Positions 32,381 to 43,465 of a stretch of DNA of 64,000 bases are shown one piece after another. The notes under the pieces are model-generated. The model worked only from the letters and a program-made list of their open reading frames with translations. It made no database searches and had not been told where the DNA came from. The stretch spans positions 1-64,000 of the forward strand of contig NZ_JAPZVR010000002.1 of the NCBI RefSeq assembly GCF_027622855.1, read 5' to 3'. This DNA comes from Glycomyces algeriensis (GTDB taxonomy: Bacteria > Actinomycetota > Actinomycetes > Mycobacteriales > Micromonosporaceae). Every line of letters starts with the position of its first letter. The stretch's first letter is position 1. A program made the translations under genes and the position numbers.

Positions 32381-32435
32381 GGGCATGCCTTTCACGAAAT
32401 TCATGGACACGACGCGACAGCGGTCGACGAACGAC

Positions 32436-32516
32436 TTCCTCCGCCGGTATTACCCGGATCAGGTGTGAGGGTCTGCGGTCGGTTCCGCACTCTCAGCCAA
32501 TCGGCTCCCCTGTCGC
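32436..32516 (-). promoter_or_regulatory. TPP riboswitch (THI element)
   Basis: Read on the minus strand, the leader contains ACAGGGGAGCC, GGCTGAGAG, then ACCCTCACACC and TGATCCGGGTAATACCGGCG, the two conserved sensor-helix regions of the thiamine-pyrophosphate aptamer in the right order and spacing. It ends about 55 nt before the ykoE start, so TPP should switch the ECF operon off. Confidence 0.95.
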
Positions 32517-32631
32517 TTCCGACGTTAACACCAGGCGGCGGGTCGTGACCCGAGGCGATCCCGTCAGGTGGCGCCGGACGCCCGCCGCGAGGGGACGCGG
32601 GGGCGCCGCCGGGGCTCGGTAGATTGCGGTG

Positions 32632-33009
32632 GTGACGACTGAACGGGATTGGGAGCGGGTGCGGCGGGTCGTGGCGGCGCTGCCGGAGGGCACCTGGACC
32701 TCGTACGGGGACCTCGCGGAGCTGATCGGCACGGGCCCGCGGCAGGTCGGGGCGTACATGCGGGACGGCGATGTCCCACGGGCGTACCGGGTCCTCACCG
32801 CGGGCGGCACGGTCTCGGAGGGCTTCCGCTGGGCGGACGGCCGCACCGGCCGCGATGTGCCCGACCTCCTGCGCGCCGACGGCGTGACGGTGAGCGCGAA
32901 GGGCCGCGCCGACCGCGCCCAGCGCATGTCGGTCTACGACCTCAAGCTCCTCGCGGCCGAACTCGACGAGGACGAGCCAGCACCAGACGGTGAAGAAGAC
33001 TGGAAATAA
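32632..33009 (+). CDS. MGMT-family alkyltransferase-like protein (125 aa)
   Basis: Short protein made of the DNA-binding domain of O6-alkylguanine-DNA alkyltransferases: TWTSYGDLAELIGTGPRQVG carries the helix-turn-helix. The reactive PCHR motif is absent (here DVPRAYRVL), so it cannot accept the alkyl group itself. It resembles alkyltransferase-like (ATL) proteins, which mark O6-alkylguanine for excision repair, but lacks the usual Trp of their PWHR motif. A GTG at 32632 follows the -10 box TAGATT by 7 nt and has no Shine-Dalgarno sequence; an in-frame GTG at 32629 is possible. Confidence 0.75.
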   Translation: MTTERDWERVRRVVAALPEGTWTSYGDLAELIGTGPRQVGAYMRDGDVPRAYRVLTAGGTVSEGFRWADGRTGRDVPDLLRADGVTVSAKGRADRAQRMSVYDLKLLAAELDEDEPAPDGEEDWK

Positions 33010-33016
33010 TCAGCTA

Positions 33017-33093
33017 TATCGTGATATTTCCGGCCTTAAGGACCCGGTCTTGGCGAAGCTTGCGAGCCATAAATTCGCAGAGCGCAAAAGTAC
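33017..33093 (+). repeat. Dispersed intergenic element, copy 1
   Basis: A 77-bp block beginning TATCGTGATATTTCC and containing GGCGAAGCTTGCGAGCC matches 40182-40258 without gaps (66 of 77 identical by hand count); weaker similarity continues to about 33130. It is AT-richer than its surroundings and starts 7 nt after the alkyltransferase-like stop codon. No reading frame in it looks coding. Confidence 0.8.
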
Positions 33094-33143
33094 CTGGCAG
33101 GTATGACATCGCTCTTTCGAACAAGATCCGAAAGACCTTCAAG

Positions 33144-33773
33144 CTAGTGCAGCGCCGCGTCCGGTTCCGTGAGACGCCAGGAAGTGAAGGCCACGGTGAG
33201 GCCGGCGCGGCTCGGCGCGCAGCAGTACGGCCCGGCCTGGGCCGAGGCGGCGGGGTCGAGCGGGGCGAGGCGCACGAGCCGCCAGGGCTCCTCCTCCACA
33301 CGGGCGCGCACGATGACCGCGTCCTCGAGGCGGCTGGCCCGGATGGTGACCTCGCGGCCGGCCCATTCGGGCACCGGCGCGACCGACCAGTCGGACTTCC
33401 CGGCGGTGACCACGGCGCCGACCTGCGGCGCGCCGTCCGCGAACTCGACCCCGGCCTTGATCCAGTGCTCCGCGTCGACGCGGATCATCAGACCGGCCTG
33501 GTCGAACTGCGCCTCGAACGCGGCGACGAACCGCACCTCGACCGCGCTGCCGCGGTCCCAGTCGTCCAGGAGCGCGTGCTCGTCCTCGTGGACGAACCCG
33601 TACCCGGTGTGCCGCCACGCGTCGCTGCCCTCGGCCGCGGTGACCAGCAGCCCGCCGTCGTCGGACTCCTTCGCCGCGACCGGCAGCGTCGTCCACGCGC
33701 CGCACTTCCATGCCAGTTCACGTCCCGCGAGCGTCGCCACGGCCGGATTGTCGATCGGTGCTGCATCGTCCAT
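33144..33773 (-). CDS. DUF1349 family protein (209 aa)
   Basis: Concanavalin-A-like beta-sandwich protein of the DUF1349 group: WKCGAWTTLPVAA at the start, a central DQAGLMIRVDAEHWIKAGVEF that is the family hallmark, and SVAPVPEW. No signal peptide. Family members are often annotated as regulators of chromatin (yeast YbfG/YtnI-type), but the role in bacteria is unknown. The ATG at 33773 lies 8 nt after a TAGGCT -10 box, again leaderless-looking. It is divergent from the RecQ-like gene. Confidence 0.82.
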   Translation of the reverse strand: MDDAAPIDNPAVATLAGRELAWKCGAWTTLPVAAKESDDGGLLVTAAEGSDAWRHTGYGFVHEDEHALLDDWDRGSAVEVRFVAAFEAQFDQAGLMIRVDAEHWIKAGVEFADGAPQVGAVVTAGKSDWSVAPVPEWAGREVTIRASRLEDAVIVRARVEEEPWRLVRLAPLDPAASAQAGPYCCAPSRAGLTVAFTSWRLTEPDAALH

Positions 33774-33780
33774 CGCTCCG

Positions 33781-33822
33781 AGCCTACTGTCGTCACGGGC
33801 CGTCACACCAGTGCGGTACAAC
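33781..33822. promoter_or_regulatory. Divergent leaderless promoters, DUF1349 and recQ-like
   Basis: Minus strand TAGGCT (33786-33781) ends 8 nt before the DUF1349 ATG (33773); plus strand TACAAC (33817-33822) ends 8 nt before the helicase ATG (33830). Neither gene has a Shine-Dalgarno sequence at normal spacing. Confidence 0.45.
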
Positions 33823-33829
33823 CGTCCCT

Positions 33830-35938
33830 ATGGCAGGAACAGCGACGCTCAGAGACGAAGCCGAGACACTGCTGCGCGCCCTCGCGGGCGAGCACGCGCG
33901 GCTCCGCGAAGACCAATGGCGGGCGATCGAGGCGCTCTGCGACAAGGAACCGGAGGACAGCGGCAGCCGCGTGCTCCTGGTGCAGCGCACCGGGTTCGGC
34001 AAGTCCGCGGTCTACTTCACGGCCACCTCGCTCCTGCGCCGCCGCGGCGCGGGCCCGACGGTGATCGTCTCGCCCCTGCTCGCGCTCATGCGCAACCAGA
34101 TCGAGGCCGCCGAGCGCGCCGGGGTGCGCGCCCGCACCATCAACTCGGCCAACCCCGAGGACTGGGACGCGATCGCCGAGGCCATCGCCGAAGACAGCGT
34201 GGACGTGCTGCTCATCAGCCCCGAGCGGCTCAACAACCCGGCGTTTCGCGACTACCAGCTGCCCAAGCTCGCCGCCGGGTGCGGCATGCTCGTCGTCGAC
34301 GAGGCCCACTGCATCTCCGACTGGGGCCACGACTTCCGGCCCGACTACCGGCGCATCGCCACCTTCATCGAGGACCTGCCCGACAGCGTCCCGGTCCTGG
34401 CGACCACCGCCACCGCGAACGCCCGCGTCTCCGACGACATCGCCGAGCAGCTGGACAAGAAGGACGCCGCCACGCTCGTCCTCCGCGGCAGCCTCGACCG
34501 CGAGTCCCTGCGACTGTCCGTAGTGGACATGCCCGACAACGCCCACCGCCTCGCCTGGCTCGACGAGCAGCTCCCCCGCATGGACGGCTCCGGGATCATC
34601 TACACCCTCACCGTGGCCGCCGCCGAGGAGGTCAGCGACTACCTCGCCTCGCGCGGCCACGCCGTCGGCTCCTACACCGGCCGCACCGACAACGCCGAAC
34701 GCCTCGAGCGCGAAGAGGAGCTGCTCGGCAACCGCATCAAGGCGCTCGTCGCCACCAGCGCCCTCGGCATGGGCTTCGACAAGCCCGACCTCGGGTTCGT
34801 CGTCCACTTGGGAGCGCCCTCCTCCCCCGTCGCCTACTACCAGCAGATCGGCCGCGCCGGCCGCGCCCGCGACCGCGCCGAGGTGGTACTCCTGCCCGGC
34901 AGCGAGGACCAGGCCATCTGGGACTACTTCGGCTCGCTCTCCTTCCCGGCCGAAGACGCGGTGCGCCGCACCCTCGAGGTGCTCGCCGCCGAGGGCCGCG
35001 CGCTGTCGACGGCCGCACTTGAGACGCGGGTCGACCTGCGCCGCACCAGGCTCGAGATGATGCTCAAAGTGCTCGATGTGGACGGCGCGGTGCACCGGGT
35101 GAAAGGCGGCTGGGAGGCCACCGGCCGGCCGTGGGTCTACGACGCCGAGCGGTACGCGAAGGTCGCCGCGGCCCGCACCCACGAGCAGCGGCGGATGCTC
35201 GCCTACGAGGCCACGACCGAATGCCGGCTCGAGTTCCTGCGCAAGGAGCTCGACGACGCCGAGGCCGCGCCGTGCGGGCGCTGCGACAACTGCACCGGCA
35301 CCCGCACCGAAGCGGGCGTCTCGGCCGAGGCGGCCGCCGGCGCGGCGGCGGCACTGTCGAAGCCGGGCGTCCCGGTCGACCCGAAGCGCATGTGGCCCAC
35401 CGGCCTGCAGGCCATCGGCATCGACCTCAAGGGGAAGATCCCGGTCGAGTCGAGCGCCGAACCGGGCCGGGCGCTGGCGCGCCTGTCGGACATCGGCTGG
35501 GGCGGCCCGCTGCGCGAGCTGCTCTCGGACGGCGCCGACCGAGAGGTGCCGGAAGACGTGTTCAAGGCAGTTGTGCAGGTCCTGGCCTCGTGGGACTGGG
35601 CGCAGCGGCCCGCCGCGGTCGTCTCGATGGGGTCGCTCTCGCGCCCGCGGCTGGTCGACGGGCTGGCCCAGCGCCTCGCGCAGCTCGGCCGCATGGAGTA
35701 CCTCGGCGCCCTCGGCCGCGCGAGCGGCACCGGCGGCGGTGCCCACCGCGCCAACAGCGCCCAGCGCCTCCAGCAGGTGCTGCACGCGTTCACTGTGGAC
35801 TTCCCGGTGCCCGCGTCGAGCGTGCTGCTCGTGGACGATGTGCGCGACAGCGGCTGGTCGATGACCGTGGCCGCCATGCGGCTGCGCGAGGCCGGGGCCA
35901 CAGCCGTGTACCCGCTCACGCTCGCCCTGCAGGCCTGA
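33830..35938 (+). CDS. RecQ-family helicase fused to a phosphoribosyltransferase-like domain (702 aa)
   Basis: 3'-5' DNA helicase. The N-terminal part carries REDQWRAIE (motif 0), VQRTGFGKSAVYF (Walker A, TGFGKS), DEAHCISDWGHDFRPDY (motif II and the RecQ aromatic loop) and YYQQIGRAGRARDRAE (motif VI). A zinc cluster follows (ECRLEF, then CGRCDNC, about residues 465-485). The last about 130 residues contain SSVLLVDDVRDSGWSMT, the PRPP-binding-type loop of type I phosphoribosyltransferases, as in ComF. The fusion couples DNA unwinding with a nucleotide-binding domain of unknown role. The start has no Shine-Dalgarno sequence but is 8 nt from a -10-like box. Confidence 0.92.
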   Translation: MAGTATLRDEAETLLRALAGEHARLREDQWRAIEALCDKEPEDSGSRVLLVQRTGFGKSAVYFTATSLLRRRGAGPTVIVSPLLALMRNQIEAAERAGVRARTINSANPEDWDAIAEAIAEDSVDVLLISPERLNNPAFRDYQLPKLAAGCGMLVVDEAHCISDWGHDFRPDYRRIATFIEDLPDSVPVLATTATANARVSDDIAEQLDKKDAATLVLRGSLDRESLRLSVVDMPDNAHRLAWLDEQLPRMDGSGIIYTLTVAAAEEVSDYLASRGHAVGSYTGRTDNAERLEREEELLGNRIKALVATSALGMGFDKPDLGFVVHLGAPSSPVAYYQQIGRAGRARDRAEVVLLPGSEDQAIWDYFGSLSFPAEDAVRRTLEVLAAEGRALSTAALETRVDLRRTRLEMMLKVLDVDGAVHRVKGGWEATGRPWVYDAERYAKVAAARTHEQRRMLAYEATTECRLEFLRKELDDAEAAPCGRCDNCTGTRTEAGVSAEAAAGAAAALSKPGVPVDPKRMWPTGLQAIGIDLKGKIPVESSAEPGRALARLSDIGWGGPLRELLSDGADREVPEDVFKAVVQVLASWDWAQRPAAVVSMGSLSRPRLVDGLAQRLAQLGRMEYLGALGRASGTGGGAHRANSAQRLQQVLHAFTVDFPVPASSVLLVDDVRDSGWSMTVAAMRLREAGATAVYPLTLALQA

Positions 35939-35943
35939 GAGTG

Positions 35944-35977
35944 CCGCGGCGGCGGGACCTCGGCCCCGCCGCCGCGG
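35944..35977. terminator. Hairpin terminator after recQ-like gene
   Basis: CCGCGGCGGCGGG (35944-35956) pairs with CCCGCCGCCGCGG (35965-35977) across an 8-nt loop, 5 nt after the stop codon. Confidence 0.8.
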
Positions 35978-36069
35978 ATGTCCAAGCGCTGCAAGGCTTC
36001 TCCCGGTGAGCCGTCCATCGGTCAGGATTGCACGTCGGTCCGGTGGACGGGCCGCGCTAGGGTCGCCCG

Positions 36070-36660
36070 ATGGTCATCTCCTTCAACACCAGTGGTCTCC
36101 AGCAACAGGACGCGACGACCTGGACCGACCCGCGCACCGGCGACCTCGTCAAAGTCGTGGTCGCGCAGGGGACGCCGTTCCCGGGCGAATGGCTGCGTGA
36201 CCAGTACACGCTGCAGCGCGGCTTCGCCGGCATGTACGCGGAGCAGGGCTGCGCGATCGAGATCGAGCTCGTCAACCTCGGCGGCGTGACCGCGGTGCGG
36301 CAGCTCGTCAAACTGCCGCTCCCGAACGCGCCCAGCGGGCAGTACTTCATGGCGATGTTCACCCTGGCCAAGGCACCCCAGTACGCCCAGGTCATGTACG
36401 TCGCCAAGGAGCAGGGCATGACGGGCCTGCGCGAGGCGACCCTCATGGCGCAGCTCGGCTTCGACAACTGGACGATGCCCCACCCGTTCGACCCGCAGCT
36501 CCAGACCCGCCTGCCGTTCCACCGCGGCGACGACCCCGCCTACGACGCCCAGTTTCCCGACCACCCGCTCTCGCGCGCCCGGGCCTGGACGTGGAACGTC
36601 GGCCGCTACGCGACCGTCGACCCCGGCTTCGCCGCCGTCCCTGACAACTGGAACGCCTGA
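36070..36660 (+). CDS. Hypothetical protein (196 aa)
   Basis: No family recognised. A soluble protein with no signal peptide or membrane helix. Visible are a Gln-rich start (MVISFNTSGLQQQDATTW), a central region LVNLGGVTAVRQLVKLPLPN and an aromatic, Pro-rich C-terminal half (NWTMPHPFDPQLQTRLPFHR). Strong G/C third positions support coding. The ATG lies exactly 7 nt after the -10 box TAGGGT (36058-36063), so it is probably leaderless. It stands alone between two terminators. Confidence 0.7.
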   Translation: MVISFNTSGLQQQDATTWTDPRTGDLVKVVVAQGTPFPGEWLRDQYTLQRGFAGMYAEQGCAIEIELVNLGGVTAVRQLVKLPLPNAPSGQYFMAMFTLAKAPQYAQVMYVAKEQGMTGLREATLMAQLGFDNWTMPHPFDPQLQTRLPFHRGDDPAYDAQFPDHPLSRARAWTWNVGRYATVDPGFAAVPDNWNA

Positions 36661-36674
36661 CCCCCGCGCACGCA

Positions 36675-36704
36675 ACGGGCCCGGCGGCGGTCCACCGGGC
36701 CCGT
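36675..36704. terminator. Bidirectional hairpin terminator
   Basis: ACGGGCCCGG (36675-36684) pairs with CCGGGCCCGT (36695-36704) around a 10-nt loop, between convergent genes. Confidence 0.75.
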
Positions 36705-36757
36705 CCTCAGATCACATCACCACGTCAGCCGCCGGATCGAATCGCCGCAGGCGGCCG

Positions 36758-37546
36758 TCAGGCGACCGCCCGGCCCAGCGCCGGGTAGTAGCCGTTGAGG
36801 TGTCCCATCTCGTTCGGATGGTAGGACTCGGACGGCGGGTAGGCCAGGCCGTTCAGGTAGGGGACGTCGTCGCAGATCGCGTGCCCGGCGAACGCGTCGC
36901 GCACGTCCACATAGGTGAACCCGTGCTCCTCGGCCTTGTTCTGCACCACCGCGGCGAGGCGGTCGGCCGCGTCGTTCATCCGCATCTGCTCGGCGACGTT
37001 GGGCTGCTTCAGCGGGCCGCAGGTGGTCGCGCCGTTGAACAGGCGCGGGTAGCCGAGCACGTAGACGGCGGCGTTCGGCGCGCGGTTCGCGATTGCGGCG
37101 TACGCGCCGTCCAGGAGGCCGGGGAGCCGGTCCTGGACGAGGGCCTCGGAGGCCTCGATCTCGTCCATGCAGTTGGCGAGGGGCGTGATGCAGGCCGTGA
37201 CGGCCTCCGCCCAGCCGATGTCGTTGCCACCGATGGTGACCGTGACGATGTCGGTCTCGGCGTCGAGCGAGCCGAGCTGCTCGGCGAGGAGGTCGCTGGT
37301 CGTCGCTCCGGAGCAGGCCTCGAAGGCGAGTTCGGCGCCGAGGCCGTCGGCGAGAAGCCGCGGGTAGGCCTCGTTCGAGCGCATGCACGCCTCGTCGAAG
37401 TAGTCGCCGGTGCCGGTCCCTGAGGAGTACGAGTCCCCGAGCGCCACATACCGTTTCGGTTCGACATCGGCCTGGGCCGCCGTGTCGGGCAGGACGGCGA
37501 GTGCGGCGGCGGCGAGGGCCGCGGCCGCGAGGCGCGCAGGGATCAT
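36758..37546 (-). CDS. Secreted SGNH-hydrolase lipase/esterase (262 aa)
   Basis: Exported serine esterase of the GDSL/SGNH type found in actinomycetes. A signal peptide (about residues 1-27) is followed by the four conserved blocks: GDSYSSG with the nucleophile Ser, SGATTSDL with Gly, IGGNDIGW with Asn, and YHPNEMGH with the His (Asp is three residues before in this family). Six Cys are spaced as in disulfide-bonded Streptomyces lipases. The ATG at 37546 has CGGAG at 5-nt spacing. The substrate is probably a lipid ester or acetylated sugar. Confidence 0.9.
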   Translation of the reverse strand: MIPARLAAAALAAAALAVLPDTAAQADVEPKRYVALGDSYSSGTGTGDYFDEACMRSNEAYPRLLADGLGAELAFEACSGATTSDLLAEQLGSLDAETDIVTVTIGGNDIGWAEAVTACITPLANCMDEIEASEALVQDRLPGLLDGAYAAIANRAPNAAVYVLGYPRLFNGATTCGPLKQPNVAEQMRMNDAADRLAAVVQNKAEEHGFTYVDVRDAFAGHAICDDVPYLNGLAYPPSESYHPNEMGHLNGYYPALGRAVA

Positions 37547-37738
37547 GCGGACTCCGTTCCGATCGGGTTCGTGGAGGACGTTAATGCCCGAACTGCCGTA
37601 ATCACGGCCGAAACCACCGCAAACGGCGAAAACTGTAGGCGAGCTGACACCCCGGCGCCGCCGCGCGGGGGAATTCGCCGCGGGGCCTTCTGGCCGATGG
37701 GGCGCCCGCGTCACGCTCTCCTCCCCTACGCTGGAGCC

Positions 37739-38299
37739 ATGGGTGCATCGACGTCGCCGCGCCGCCTGACCATGTCCGACCAGGCCCTGATCGAGGGCAC
37801 TGGAGCGGACTGGAAGACCTGGCTGGCGCTTCTCGACGAACGCAAGGCGGCGGCGCTCGACCATGCCGCGATCGCGCGGATGCTGGTGCAGGAGTTCGAG
37901 GTCGACGGGTGGTGGGCCCAGTCCATCACCGTCGGCTACGAGCAGGAGCGGGGCCTGCGCGAGCCGGGGCAGCGGGCCGACGGCACGTTCAGCGCCAACG
38001 CCTCCAAGACCGTGGCCGCCTCCGTCACCGAGGCCTTCGAGCAGCTCGCCGACCCGGACGCGCAGGCCGGATGGCTCGGCGGCATCGAGCTGACCCAGCG
38101 CAGCGCGTCCCCGCCGAAGTCGGTGCGGTTCGACGCCTCGGACGGCACGCGCGTCCTCGCGAACCTCACCGCCAAAGGCGAGGGCAAGACCGCCGTGCAG
38201 GTGGAGATCGCCAAGCTCGGGTCGGCCGAGGAGGTCGCCGCCGCGAAGGCGGACTGGAAGACCCGCCTCGACCGTCTCGCGGAACGCTTGGCCGGCTTA
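37739..38299 (+). CDS. DUF4287/SRPBCC-type protein without a stop codon at its expected end
   Basis: The N-terminal part (ADWKTWLALLDERKAAALDH, then VDGWWAQSITVGYEQERGLR) matches the DUF4287 helical domain, and the rest (ANASKTVAASVTEAFEQLAD and after) resembles an SRPBCC/AHSA1-like domain of stress-type proteins. Homology ends about residue 186, where a stop would be expected, but the codon is TTA (38297-38299). The frame then stays open antisense through the EamA gene to 39799 (686 aa in all). The TTA is the reverse complement of the EamA stop codon TAA. The end given here is where family similarity stops, not a true stop. The ATG lies 7 nt after the -10 box TACGCT (37727-37732). Confidence 0.6.
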
Positions 38300-39238
38300 G
38301 GACTTCACCGCCGGGGCGGCGGCGTCGGTCGCCTCGACCGGCGGCTTCGGTGCGTCGTTCGACTGCTTGCGGCCCCTGGAGCGCGAGATCGCGACACCGA
38401 CCAGTGCGAGCGCGCCGCCCGCGAGGGTCAGCCAGGTCGGGATCTCGTCGAGGAGGATCCAGGAGAGGCCGACCACGATCGCCGGGACCACGTAGGTCGT
38501 CGCGCCCAGCTTGCCCGCGGTGGTGAAGCGGAGGGCGTATCCCCAGGTGAGGAATGCCAGCGCGGTCGGGAACAGGCCGAGGTAGAGGACGTGGAGCGTC
38601 GCCGAGGACGGGGCGGCCTCCAGCTCGCTGAACAGGAGCGGCGCGAACGGCAGGCAGAGGACCGCGGCGATGGCGTTGCCGAAGGCGGTGAACTGGAGCG
38701 ACGTGCAGTGCTTCAGGGTCGGCTTCTGGACGACGACGCTGATGGCGTAGGTGATGGCCGAGACCAGGCAGAGCAGGACCCCGAGGACCGAGGCGGCGCC
38801 GTCGCGGGACATCGAGAGGCTCACGACCGCGACGCCGGCGAAGGAGACGGCCATGCCGAGGAACAGGCGGGGCGGGAAGCCCTCCTTGAGGAGCCAGCCG
38901 CCGAGGAGCGCGATGAGGATGGGTCCGATGTTGACGATGAGGGCGGCGGTGCCGGCGTCCACGAGCTGCTCGCCCCAGTTGAGGGCGACCATGTACAGGC
39001 CGAACCAGAGGATGCCGGCGGTGAGGATGCCGGGCCAGGCGGCGCGTTTCGGCAGGCCTTCGCGGCGGATCGCCCAGACGGCGAGGAGGACGACGGCGGC
39101 GACGCCGGCCCGGCCGAGGGTCAGCGGGCCGGGGTCGAGGTGGCGGCCGGCGTCGCGGATGGACACGAACGCCGAGGCCCAGCACAGAACGGTGATGCCG
39201 ATGGCGATGGCGGCGCGGGCATTGAACTTGTCGCTCAC
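38297..39238 (-). CDS. EamA/DMT-superfamily permease (313 aa)
   Basis: Ten-helix drug/metabolite transporter with two EamA repeats: the first covers about residues 8-140 (ITVLCWASAFVSIRDAG at the start), the second about 150-285 (CLVSAITYAISVVVQK and PTWLTLAGGALALVGVAISR). The GTG at 39238 is preceded by GAGGAG at 9-nt spacing. Family members export amino acids, purines or other metabolites; the substrate is unknown. Its stop codon lies in the coding frame of the DUF4287 gene running the other way. Confidence 0.9.
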   Translation of the reverse strand: MSDKFNARAAIAIGITVLCWASAFVSIRDAGRHLDPGPLTLGRAGVAAVVLLAVWAIRREGLPKRAAWPGILTAGILWFGLYMVALNWGEQLVDAGTAALIVNIGPILIALLGGWLLKEGFPPRLFLGMAVSFAGVAVVSLSMSRDGAASVLGVLLCLVSAITYAISVVVQKPTLKHCTSLQFTAFGNAIAAVLCLPFAPLLFSELEAAPSSATLHVLYLGLFPTALAFLTWGYALRFTTAGKLGATTYVVPAIVVGLSWILLDEIPTWLTLAGGALALVGVAISRSRGRKQSNDAPKPPVEATDAAAPAVKS

Positions 39239-39485
39239 GGGCAGTGGCTCCTCACGGTGGGGCGGGCGGAGCGCCTTGGGTGGGCGGGCGGCTCCGGCCT
39301 GGGGGCGCTGGTGGCACCGGGGCCAAACCTAGCATCGGGGGTATGGATCCGGTTATCCGTTATTCGACTGTGTTTCATGGCGACCGGAAGACCGGTCGAC
39401 TGTGTCTCGCGGAGACCGTATCGCGGTCGGATTTTCAGATGGTCCGCGCGGGGAACCCGATATCGGTGGGCGGCGTCGAAGGGAC

Positions 39486-40163
39486 ATGATGGGACACAAG
39501 ACTATGCAACGGTTGATCCCGCTCGCGGCGCTGCTGATGCTGGCGGCGTGTGGACAGGGCGCGGAGGACGCGGGTTCGGACGGGACCGGTTCGGCCGCGG
39601 ACAGCTCGCAGTCCGGGGACGCGTCGGACGGGCCGACGGTGCCGTCCGACCAGGTCGTCTACCAAGGGATGCTCACGGTGCTCCAGGGCGTCGAGCGCGA
39701 CGCGGCGGAGCTGTGCGGCGCGGTGGCGGAGTCGTATCCGCCGCAGTGCGGGGGCCTGCCGGTGACGGGCTGGAGCTGGGACGCGGTCGAGCACGATGAA
39801 GCGCAAGGCGTGCGCTGGGGCTCGTACCTCGTGACGGGGACGTTCGACGGGAAGTCGTTCCTGCTCACCGAGGACCCGGTGCCGACGTCGGAGATCGACA
39901 TGGCCGACTACCCGGAACTCCAGTACCAGGAGCCGGAGATCGGCGACCCGGCCGAGGACTTGAGCGCGGTCGAGCTGCAGGCGATCGCCGACGAGATCAC
40001 CGCCGAGTTCCCGCGATACGTCTACGGCGGCTGGGCCGACGACCAGAACGGCGTCGCGCTGATCGACGCGCTTCTCGTGACCCCGGAGCTGGAGGCCTAC
40101 GCGGCGGAGCATTTCCCGGCGGACACGGTGGCGTTCTCGTCGATGCTCAAGCCCGTGGAATAG
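39486..40163 (+). CDS. Putative lipoprotein (225 aa)
   Basis: A signal peptide with a lipobox (PLAALLMLAACGQG, Cys at about residue 22) is followed by a Ser/Gly/Asp-rich linker and an acidic globular domain with two Cys (CGAV and PQCGG). No family recognised. A second ATG lies directly after the first and another at 39507; the first is chosen with AAGGGA 5 nt upstream. It is divergent from the EamA gene and is followed 18 nt after its stop by copy 2 of the intergenic repeat. Confidence 0.72.
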   Translation: MMGHKTMQRLIPLAALLMLAACGQGAEDAGSDGTGSAADSSQSGDASDGPTVPSDQVVYQGMLTVLQGVERDAAELCGAVAESYPPQCGGLPVTGWSWDAVEHDEAQGVRWGSYLVTGTFDGKSFLLTEDPVPTSEIDMADYPELQYQEPEIGDPAEDLSAVELQAIADEITAEFPRYVYGGWADDQNGVALIDALLVTPELEAYAAEHFPADTVAFSSMLKPVE

Positions 40164-40181
40164 AGCGACGTATCGCGTTGT

Positions 40182-40258
40182 ATAGCGATATTTCCGCCCT
40201 TAGGGACCCGGCCTCGGCGAAGCTTGCGAGCCGTAAATCTGCAGAGCACAAAAATACT
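40182..40258 (+). repeat. Dispersed intergenic element, copy 2
   Basis: Gap-free counterpart of the block at 33017-33093 (66 of 77 identical by hand count), sharing the same orientation and the exact run GGCGAAGCTTGCGAGCC. It begins 18 nt after the lipoprotein stop codon and lies upstream of the beta-galactosidase promoter. Weaker similarity continues to about 40293. Confidence 0.8.
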
Positions 40259-40311
40259 CCTGGGGTCCGACATCTATGTTCACTCTTAGAACATGAACGT
40301 CTCCCGGGTAT

Positions 40312-40353
40312 TGACACCTCAGCGACCGCCCCTAAGATAGAAACCGGTATCTA
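40312..40353 (+). promoter_or_regulatory. Beta-galactosidase promoter with LacI-type operator
   Basis: TTGACA (40312-40317) is 15 nt upstream of TAAGAT (40333-40338). An imperfect 16-bp palindrome TAGAAACCGGTATCTA (40338-40353, 7 of 8 pairs) begins at the last base of the -10 box, covering the expected transcription start. About 200 nt of leader follow before the GH2 start. Confidence 0.6.
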
Positions 40354-40423
40354 CCTGGTCGGCCTGCCGTGTACTTCGACAGGCCGGGCGCTGTAGACGC
40401 GTCCGCATCATGGCGGACAATGA

Positions 40424-43465
<3,042 letters not shown>

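Follow-up and report, generated by a model that had tools for sequence, protein, structure and literature searches.

Mycobacterial interspersed repetitive units (MIRUs) are intergenic tandem repeats of actinobacteria with units larger than 33 bp, and the small dispersed repeats (SDRs) of cyanobacteria, presented by Elhai in 2008, are reportedly very small mobile units. The present analysis concerns a 33-bp repeat of the actinobacterium Glycomyces algeriensis, two copies of which lie about 7 kb apart in a 64,000-nucleotide stretch of DNA (contig NZ_JAPZVR010000002.1 of assembly GCF_027622855.1, positions 1 to 64,000; hereafter the window). The repeat is probably a non-autonomous mobile mini-element of the genus Glycomyces, apparently in a genome that lacks the enzyme by which similar repeats are moved.

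Other small repeats are the repetitive extragenic palindromes (REPs), for which a GTAG and a CGTC superfamily have been distinguished (Di Nocera 2013, PMC3733652). In the account that this paper gives of the CGTC families, the repeats carry a CGTC-like tag, a stem of 8-9 bp that starts with A-T pairs, a loop of 4-5 nt and a CCA tail; they apparently have no dedicated transposase, and head-to-tail dimers are negligible among them. A term search of the main text of the same paper returned no 'actinobacter', Streptomyces, Frankia, Stackebrandtia or Glycomyces. Rickettsia palindromic elements (RPEs), of about 150 bp, are inserted in frame in unrelated protein genes, according to passages in PMC10969869 and PMC3733652, and a passage in PMC4390886 describes the precise insertion of SDR5 within the HIP1 repeat.

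The evidence for mobility in Glycomyces comes from orthologous sites that are filled in some genomes and empty in others. The present genome (G000) is a draft assembly of 34 contigs and was one of 22 Glycomyces genomes compared. Judging from these alignments, each window copy is a 33-bp unit lying inside an older, 3'-side element, here named H, and the parts are arranged as follows.

33018..33045 (+): left half of H at site 1 (ATCGTGATATTTCCGGCCTTAAGGACCC), a 96% match to the empty H query
33048..33080 (+): 33-bp unit, probably mobile, copy 1 (TCTT-GGCGAAGCTTGCGAGCC-ATAAATTCGCAG), exact core 33052-33068; ten empty orthologous sites, net +33 bp against G005
33051..33069 (+): hairpin of copy 1, with a T-A closing pair (covariation) and a GGC/GCC stem, inner GA..GA and G(CTTG)C as putative inner pairing
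33082..33110 (+): right half of H at site 1 (GCGCAAAAGTAC...GACATC), joined directly to the left half in empty orthologues
40187..40209 (+): left half of H at site 2, a match to the empty H query
40212..40244 (+): 33-bp unit, probably mobile, copy 2, exact core 40216-40232; five filled and two empty genomes, net +33 bp against G002
40215..40233 (+): hairpin of copy 2, with a C-G closing pair and stem and loop as in copy 1, predicted from consensus and covariation
40246..40274 (+): right half of H at site 2, from orthologue alignment and junction comparison

Orientation succeeded for 17 of the 19 loci fetched at site 1, and among these G000 alone is filled. Ten genomes (G002, G015, G005, G007, G012, G009, G018, G014, G006 and G011) have the same flanks and keep H without the unit, and the other six oriented loci show no H-like element in the 330 nt read. 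Comparison with G005 gives 36 bp inserted and 3 (CTG) replaced, a net gain of 33 bp. Site 2 is filled in G000, G007, G015, G005 and G018 and empty, with H kept, in G002 and G009; neither unit nor H is seen in 14 of the 21 oriented loci. The orientation of one locus could not be decided, and G006 has another match, possibly the true orthologue, that lay outside the comparison. Here too 36 bp are inserted and CTG is replaced, giving net +33 bp against G002.

H is about 60 nt long (...TAAGGGACCCCTGGCGCAAAAGTAC...GGGTnCGACATC) and has 2-10 matches in each of 16 of the 22 genomes, including ten in G000, among which are the left halves at both window sites. In 29 copies examined out of 30 loci fetched (L295-L324), the nearest upstream frame is on the same strand in 27 and at most 120 nt away in 23, counts that come from a crude frame finder and, with many site-1 orthologues among them, represent fewer independent cases. 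From its position H looks like a 3'-side element; RNAalifold found in the 29 copies only a 3-bp invariant hairpin and no covariation. Since two loci have the unit at an identical point of H, the alignments suggest a preferred landing point inside H.

These comparisons recast what had been noticed from the window alone. The first-pass annotation had described a 77-bp element present twice, and the match itself was borne out, with 66 of 77 positions equal at offset 7164; its first block (33017-33093) was placed correctly and its second one base late, at 40182-40258 instead of 40181-40257, an offset of 7165 at which only 20 of 77 positions are equal. BLASTN extends the pair to 33017-33110 and 40181-40274 (94 bases, 82% identity, E about 2.5e-21), and the 17-mer GGCGAAGCTTGCGAGCC is identical in both blocks. 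The two matching blocks are composite, however, and the mobile part would be 33 bp, so that 77 bp is not the extent of the element. An ATATC/GATAT dyad, also pointed out, is indeed present and belongs to the surrounding H, not to the unit. The blocks are AT-richer than their surroundings, as had been stated, with G+C of 0.51 (33017-33093) and 0.53 (40182-40258) against 0.71 for the window.

The unit belongs to a large family, the first of three identities that had been proposed for it. Its core GGCGAAGCTTGCGAGCC has 131 matches at no more than two mismatches in G000, against 5 for a reversed control, and 93 copies at no more than one mismatch. It is present in all 22 Glycomyces genomes, and with a stricter pattern all 51 stretches found in a species-level genome collection were from Glycomyces. 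The pair had been expected to represent only a local duplication if the genome held no further copies and relatives showed no conservation; the search of both found about 130 copies in the one and conservation throughout the other. The suggestion of a mobile-element remnant was right as to mobility. The copies look recently mobile instead of being remnants, because site 1 is filled in this genome alone among the loci read while ten empty orthologues keep H, and because units lie in frame inside two proteins whose orthologues are empty. A small RNA finds no support: copies occur in both orientations, in all intergenic classes and inside coding sequence, and single units fold no better than shuffled sequence. 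Rfam gave no family at site 1 or site 2 at gathering thresholds over the window, and no match in E-value mode for site 1 or for one empty H copy.

The detailed copy set was drawn from 389 kb of G000 and comprised 116 sites (at most two mismatches) in 88 clusters, four of which (two loci) lie on the apparently duplicate contigs C13 and C31. These contigs (C13 at about 101 and 6047, C31 at about 136517 and 142463) are identical over the stretches compared (817 and 1417 bp), which may reflect a duplication in the assembly. From 209 distinct sites (at most three mismatches) in G000 and named Glycomyces sequence the consensus is YCTC-GGCGAMGCTTGCGAGCC-GTMAATNNGCAC, with loop and tail strongly conserved among copies. 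The unit builds head-to-tail arrays with a 33-bp period: same-strand pairs number 38 at a spacing of 33 bp, 20 at 66 and 9 at 99, partly from the same arrays, with a further 7 at 32, 5 at 34 and 5 at 35 bp, while opposite-strand pairs within 150 bp number 5 in all.

With respect to genes, as called by a simple in-house caller and not taken from annotation, 90 clusters fall between co-directional genes (52), in convergent (12) or divergent (12) regions, within a called gene (11, one of them a doubtful long frame) or at contig ends (3). Thus 76 of 87 non-edge clusters are intergenic, where intergenic bases make up about 15% of the sequence surveyed. Of the intergenic sites flanked by co-directional genes, 42 read sense and 24 antisense, a mild sense preference without a fixed relation to genes.

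Outside the genus, four of 39 other genomes had matches at no more than one mismatch (1, 1, 2 and 5), and only one of the four, G046, from another family of the order, has a unit-like tail. Its five copies (L328, L330-L333) carry a related hairpin and tail, CCC-GGCGYAGCTTGCGAGCC-GRCMATNNR, and four of them share a longer right-hand context. A draw of 394 Actinomycetes genomes including G000, made with the exact core with position 5 free and the common C variant at position 6 outside the pattern, gave one match in each of three others against six for the reversed control, that is, control level. Searches of plasmids, phages and viral contigs returned no match to the repeat. In the literature searched, 'repetitive extragenic palindromic' and Glycomyces never occur together, and the core sequence is in none of the papers; nothing was returned for RAYT (REP-associated tyrosine transposase) with Actinobacteria and 'REP sequences', no such study stands among the titles listed for Glycomyces with 'repeat' (10 of 11), and Glycomyces is unnamed among the 20 papers listed, out of 1,909, by a looser search.

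Another feature common to the copies is a hairpin. Its closing pair, just outside the core, covaries in 223 copies counted with close relatives collapsed: C-G in 164, T-A in 24, T-G in 13 and C-A in 7 (Fisher p 3e-16). Watson-Crick pairs number 189, where permutation gives a mean of 151. Next inwards come GGC/GCC, then two steps GA..GA, then GCTTGC, and core position 6 is the most variable (A 62%, C 30%), as expected of a bulge. The whole could be read as C-GGC-GA-n-G(CTTG)C-GA-GCC-G, where the G.A pairing and the CUUG-type loop would follow known RNA motifs; folding programs recover the outer four pairs only.

Units also occur inside proteins. A four-unit array (C29:364940-365039) in a NuoN-like gene (Proton_antipo_M) adds 132 bp, 4 x 33, and 44 residues, 4 x 11 (WPIYGSQASPK...), at a position that a single K or R occupies in 19 of 21 orthologues; the insert of G018, in the same place as that of G000, is decayed, and G020 offers a 30% relative only. 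In RibF (FAD_syn, Flavokinase) 11-12 extra residues precede SSTRVR in G000, G013, G018 and G004 and are absent in 18 of 22 genomes; of these 18, G020 exceeds the others by two residues. The decayed in-frame inserts of G018 (L183, L161), at the same NuoN-like and RibF positions as in G000, suggest insertions that are old and shared, or else a loop that has been used more than once. Copies in G000 also lie at the start of a formyltransferase (PurN-like), at the end of a NuoG-like protein and, as three units, at the end of a rhodanese-like protein. In all five proteins the unit is antisense and read in the GSQASP frame, and in NuoN-like and RibF, for which empty orthologues are known, the blocks added are of the type PIDGSQASPK. 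At three more gene ends, which we take to be those of isocitrate dehydrogenase-like, guanylate kinase-like and major facilitator superfamily (MFS)-like proteins, the unit supplies the last residues in other frames. One more case, on C34, has the core without the tail and may be a chance match. Searched with the peptide, 13 of 22 genomes gave matches; several of these contain stop codons or fall in short frames, and not all are therefore coding.

Orthologous sites, between genes and inside them, differ by a single unit, a net 33 bp or, for RibF, 36 bp, or by four units (132 bp). At the four junctions whose placement succeeded, 1-3 target bases are replaced and no target-site duplication is visible; at the RibF junction 37 bases are inserted and 1 is replaced. 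This pattern would fit a single-strand-type transposase or template switching.

Some copies are carried in longer contexts, of which there are three (A, B and C); the remaining copies are single units or arrays. Subfamily A, from 12 aligned copies, is about 230 bp long with CTAGGG...CCCTAG-type ends, inverted end sequences and the unit in mid-element, and looks like a miniature inverted-repeat transposable element (MITE) that carries the unit. Examples in G000 are C1:154382, C23:434708, C7:77293, C29:162672, C1:701533 and others, and some copies lie near contig ends or G/C runs. Types B and C have the unit ahead of a second conserved block ending GGGTnCGACAT; both window copies are of type C. 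Clusters were also examined for enclosing inverted repeats (89 of 91 had full flanks, and 13 were dropped as subfamily A or duplicated-contig copies): stems of at least 8 occur in 6 of 76, against 2.0 expected. Insertion into hairpin loops as a general rule was rejected, with such stems in only those six clusters.

The window copies themselves lie, as the first-pass annotation had it, shortly 3' of the stop codons of plus-strand genes, which end at 33009 and 40163. The genes around the two sites are these.

32671..33009 (+): gene 5' of site 1, alkyltransferase-like protein with an MGMT DNA-binding domain (PF01035, E 2.1e-6)
33144..33773 (-): gene converging on site 1, DUF1349 protein (PF07081, E 1e-60)
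39486..40163 (+): gene 5' of site 2, without a Pfam match, with matches in 22/22 Glycomyces genomes
40553..43465 (+): gene 3' of site 2, beta-galactosidase (GH2; PF02836 and others)

A thiamine pyrophosphate (TPP) riboswitch (RF00059, 66.2 bits) occupies 32419-32521 on the minus strand, 5' of a minus-strand gene run that, judged by eye, includes ABC transporter components. Before the beta-galactosidase gene, the site-2 alignment shows conserved TTGACA-like and TAAGAT-like boxes and a GATA..TATC dyad at 40300-40370, possibly a promoter and operator of that gene.

How does the unit compare with described systems? The likeness to MIRUs is that of actinobacterial intergenic tandem repeats, and goes by description, not sequence. 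The 33-bp unit alone shows none of the terminal inverted repeats or target-site duplications of a MITE, a likeness that is confined to the inverted ends of the longer subfamily A around it. SDRs belong to a different phylum and are again similar by description, not by sequence; in what PMC4390886 relates of SDR5 and HIP1, there is the same single insertion point inside another repeat as for the unit in H. REPs as portrayed in PMC3733652 share with the unit a size of 20-40 bp, a hairpin, more than 100 copies and a mostly intergenic, sometimes gene-internal, location, and with 33 bp, 131 matches, a covarying closing pair and 76 of 87 non-edge clusters intergenic the unit has the general properties of a REP. 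It differs from the GTAG type, its consensus having the ends YCTC- and -GTMAATNNGCAC and no unpaired GTAG. From the CGTC type, as that paper outlines it, the unit departs in its outer stem (the closing pair plus GGC/GCC), its TMAAT tail, its head-to-tail 33-bp arrays and its actinobacterial host, although its 5' YCTC resembles the CCTC variant and it, too, apparently goes without a dedicated transposase. Unlike the REPs and REP doublets forming hairpins (REPINs) that RAYTs mobilise, it occurs in a genome without a match to Y1_Tnp, the transposase domain of RAYTs, and the Y1_Tnp flanks read at eight loci of relatives lack the core; unlike the inverted pairs of REPINs and bacterial interspersed mosaic elements (BIMEs), its pairs are mostly direct (5 opposite-strand pairs within 150 bp against 38 direct ones at 33 bp). 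With RPEs, so far as the passages in PMC10969869 and PMC3733652 describe them, it shares insertion in frame into genes of conserved proteins whose orthologues are empty (those of the NuoN-like protein and RibF), and it differs in its 33 bp, its 11-residue steps and its arrays, the comparison being one of description and not of sequence. On the best reading, the unit works like REPs, RPEs and SDRs and falls outside the GTAG and CGTC REP and RAYT families tested. The repeat is ordinary in kind and unusual in size, arrangement and host.

Mobility itself we infer from the filled and empty sites, and a mechanism can be proposed for it. The hairpin (covarying closing pair, GGC/GCC stem, flanking GA..GA and CTTG loop) and the tail TMAATnnGCA would be recognised as a single strand by a trans-acting enzyme, which would then insert the unit, and arrays would afterwards expand by slippage. 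Insertions in reading frames would survive owing to the unit length of 33, a multiple of three, and to the soluble, flexible peptide that one frame encodes. Within the window, the unit would have landed at the same point of two copies of the older H. More tentatively, at a probability well short of even, the 33-bp hairpin may be a complete transposable unit, among the smallest, that is inserted as single-stranded DNA or RNA by an enzyme unrelated to Y1 transposases, has a preferred point in another repeat and adds 11-residue steps to conserved enzymes.

Several results weigh against a mobile hairpin unit of this kind. The analysis identified no mobilising enzyme. Sequence divergence prevents breakpoint placement in the G007/G009 and G013/G016 comparisons, two of six junction fits, and the RibF difference is +36 and not +33 bp in both comparisons. 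Single units folded as RNA or DNA are no more stable than shuffled sequence, the covariation may come partly from inherited subfamilies, and in the G046 copies core position 5 is a T or C, with which the proposed inner A.G pair cannot form. Over five stem pairs wobble is only weakly asymmetric (29 G-T/T-G against 17 A-C/C-A), so it gives little guidance on the strand or nucleic acid that matters; the next pair out (-2/+19) gives 17 against 1, but 133 of 223 copies are T-T there, which makes the pair doubtful. Finally, insertion at the same point of two H copies could have arisen by short-tract gene conversion. The site-1 unit, however, has an exact 30-nt match to a copy in an unrelated context (C32:12630) while its flanks match the site-1 orthologues, so that it seems to have moved without its surroundings, which counts against gene conversion.

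Other explanations for the repeat must be set beside a mobile element. Local duplication of one intergenic region would explain the 77 bp common to both window copies and is refuted by the roughly 130 genome copies and the empty orthologous H at both sites. A movement that needs no enzyme, in which replication switches templates at hairpins or short matches and slippage then amplifies the product, is unlikely, though it accounts for the one to three replaced bases and missing target duplication at the four placeable junctions, for the tandem arrays and for the copies within larger inverted repeats (the 6 of 76 clusters against 2.0 expected). The excess of such repeats is small, and a near-constant unit length with similar ends at unrelated sites goes beyond random switching.

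There is a low probability, lower than for template switching, that the repeat is a regulatory site under selection at gene ends, whether an RNA element, a terminator or a protein-binding site. The strong conservation of loop and tail, the intergenic location of 76 of 87 non-edge clusters and the 42 sense against 24 antisense copies between co-directional genes would suit such a site. Yet copies lie in both orientations in convergent, tandem and divergent regions alike and in frame within conserved proteins, occupancy varies between close species, the four sites examined are all patchy, and Rfam has no match at site 1. There is only a slim chance that the repeat is a REP mobilised, in the manner of gamma-proteobacterial ones, by a RAYT, that is, a Y1 tyrosine transposase. 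Size, hairpin, copy number and intergenic preference fit it, and Y1_Tnp (PF01797) is matched in 7 of 22 Glycomyces genomes, but G000 has no such match despite its 93 copies, a negative to be read with caution in a 34-contig draft. At eight of the 15 listed Y1_Tnp loci, flanks of up to 1.5 kb on each side hold no copy, the best core match having 4-6 mismatches. The Y1_Tnp results speak against a RAYT, at least for the site-1 insertion. In addition, the GTAG tag is absent from the consensus, and direct tandems take the place of inverted pairs.

Very small mobile repeats are already known, and the movers of many of them are not. In G000 the family looks young, with a site-1 insertion unseen in the relatives read; relatives offer empty sites, and the usual candidate enzyme was not found, so that the mover can be sought by genome comparison and passage. 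The in-frame steps of 11 residues in the NuoN-like protein and RibF would, for their part, amount to a natural test of how far conserved proteins tolerate insertions.

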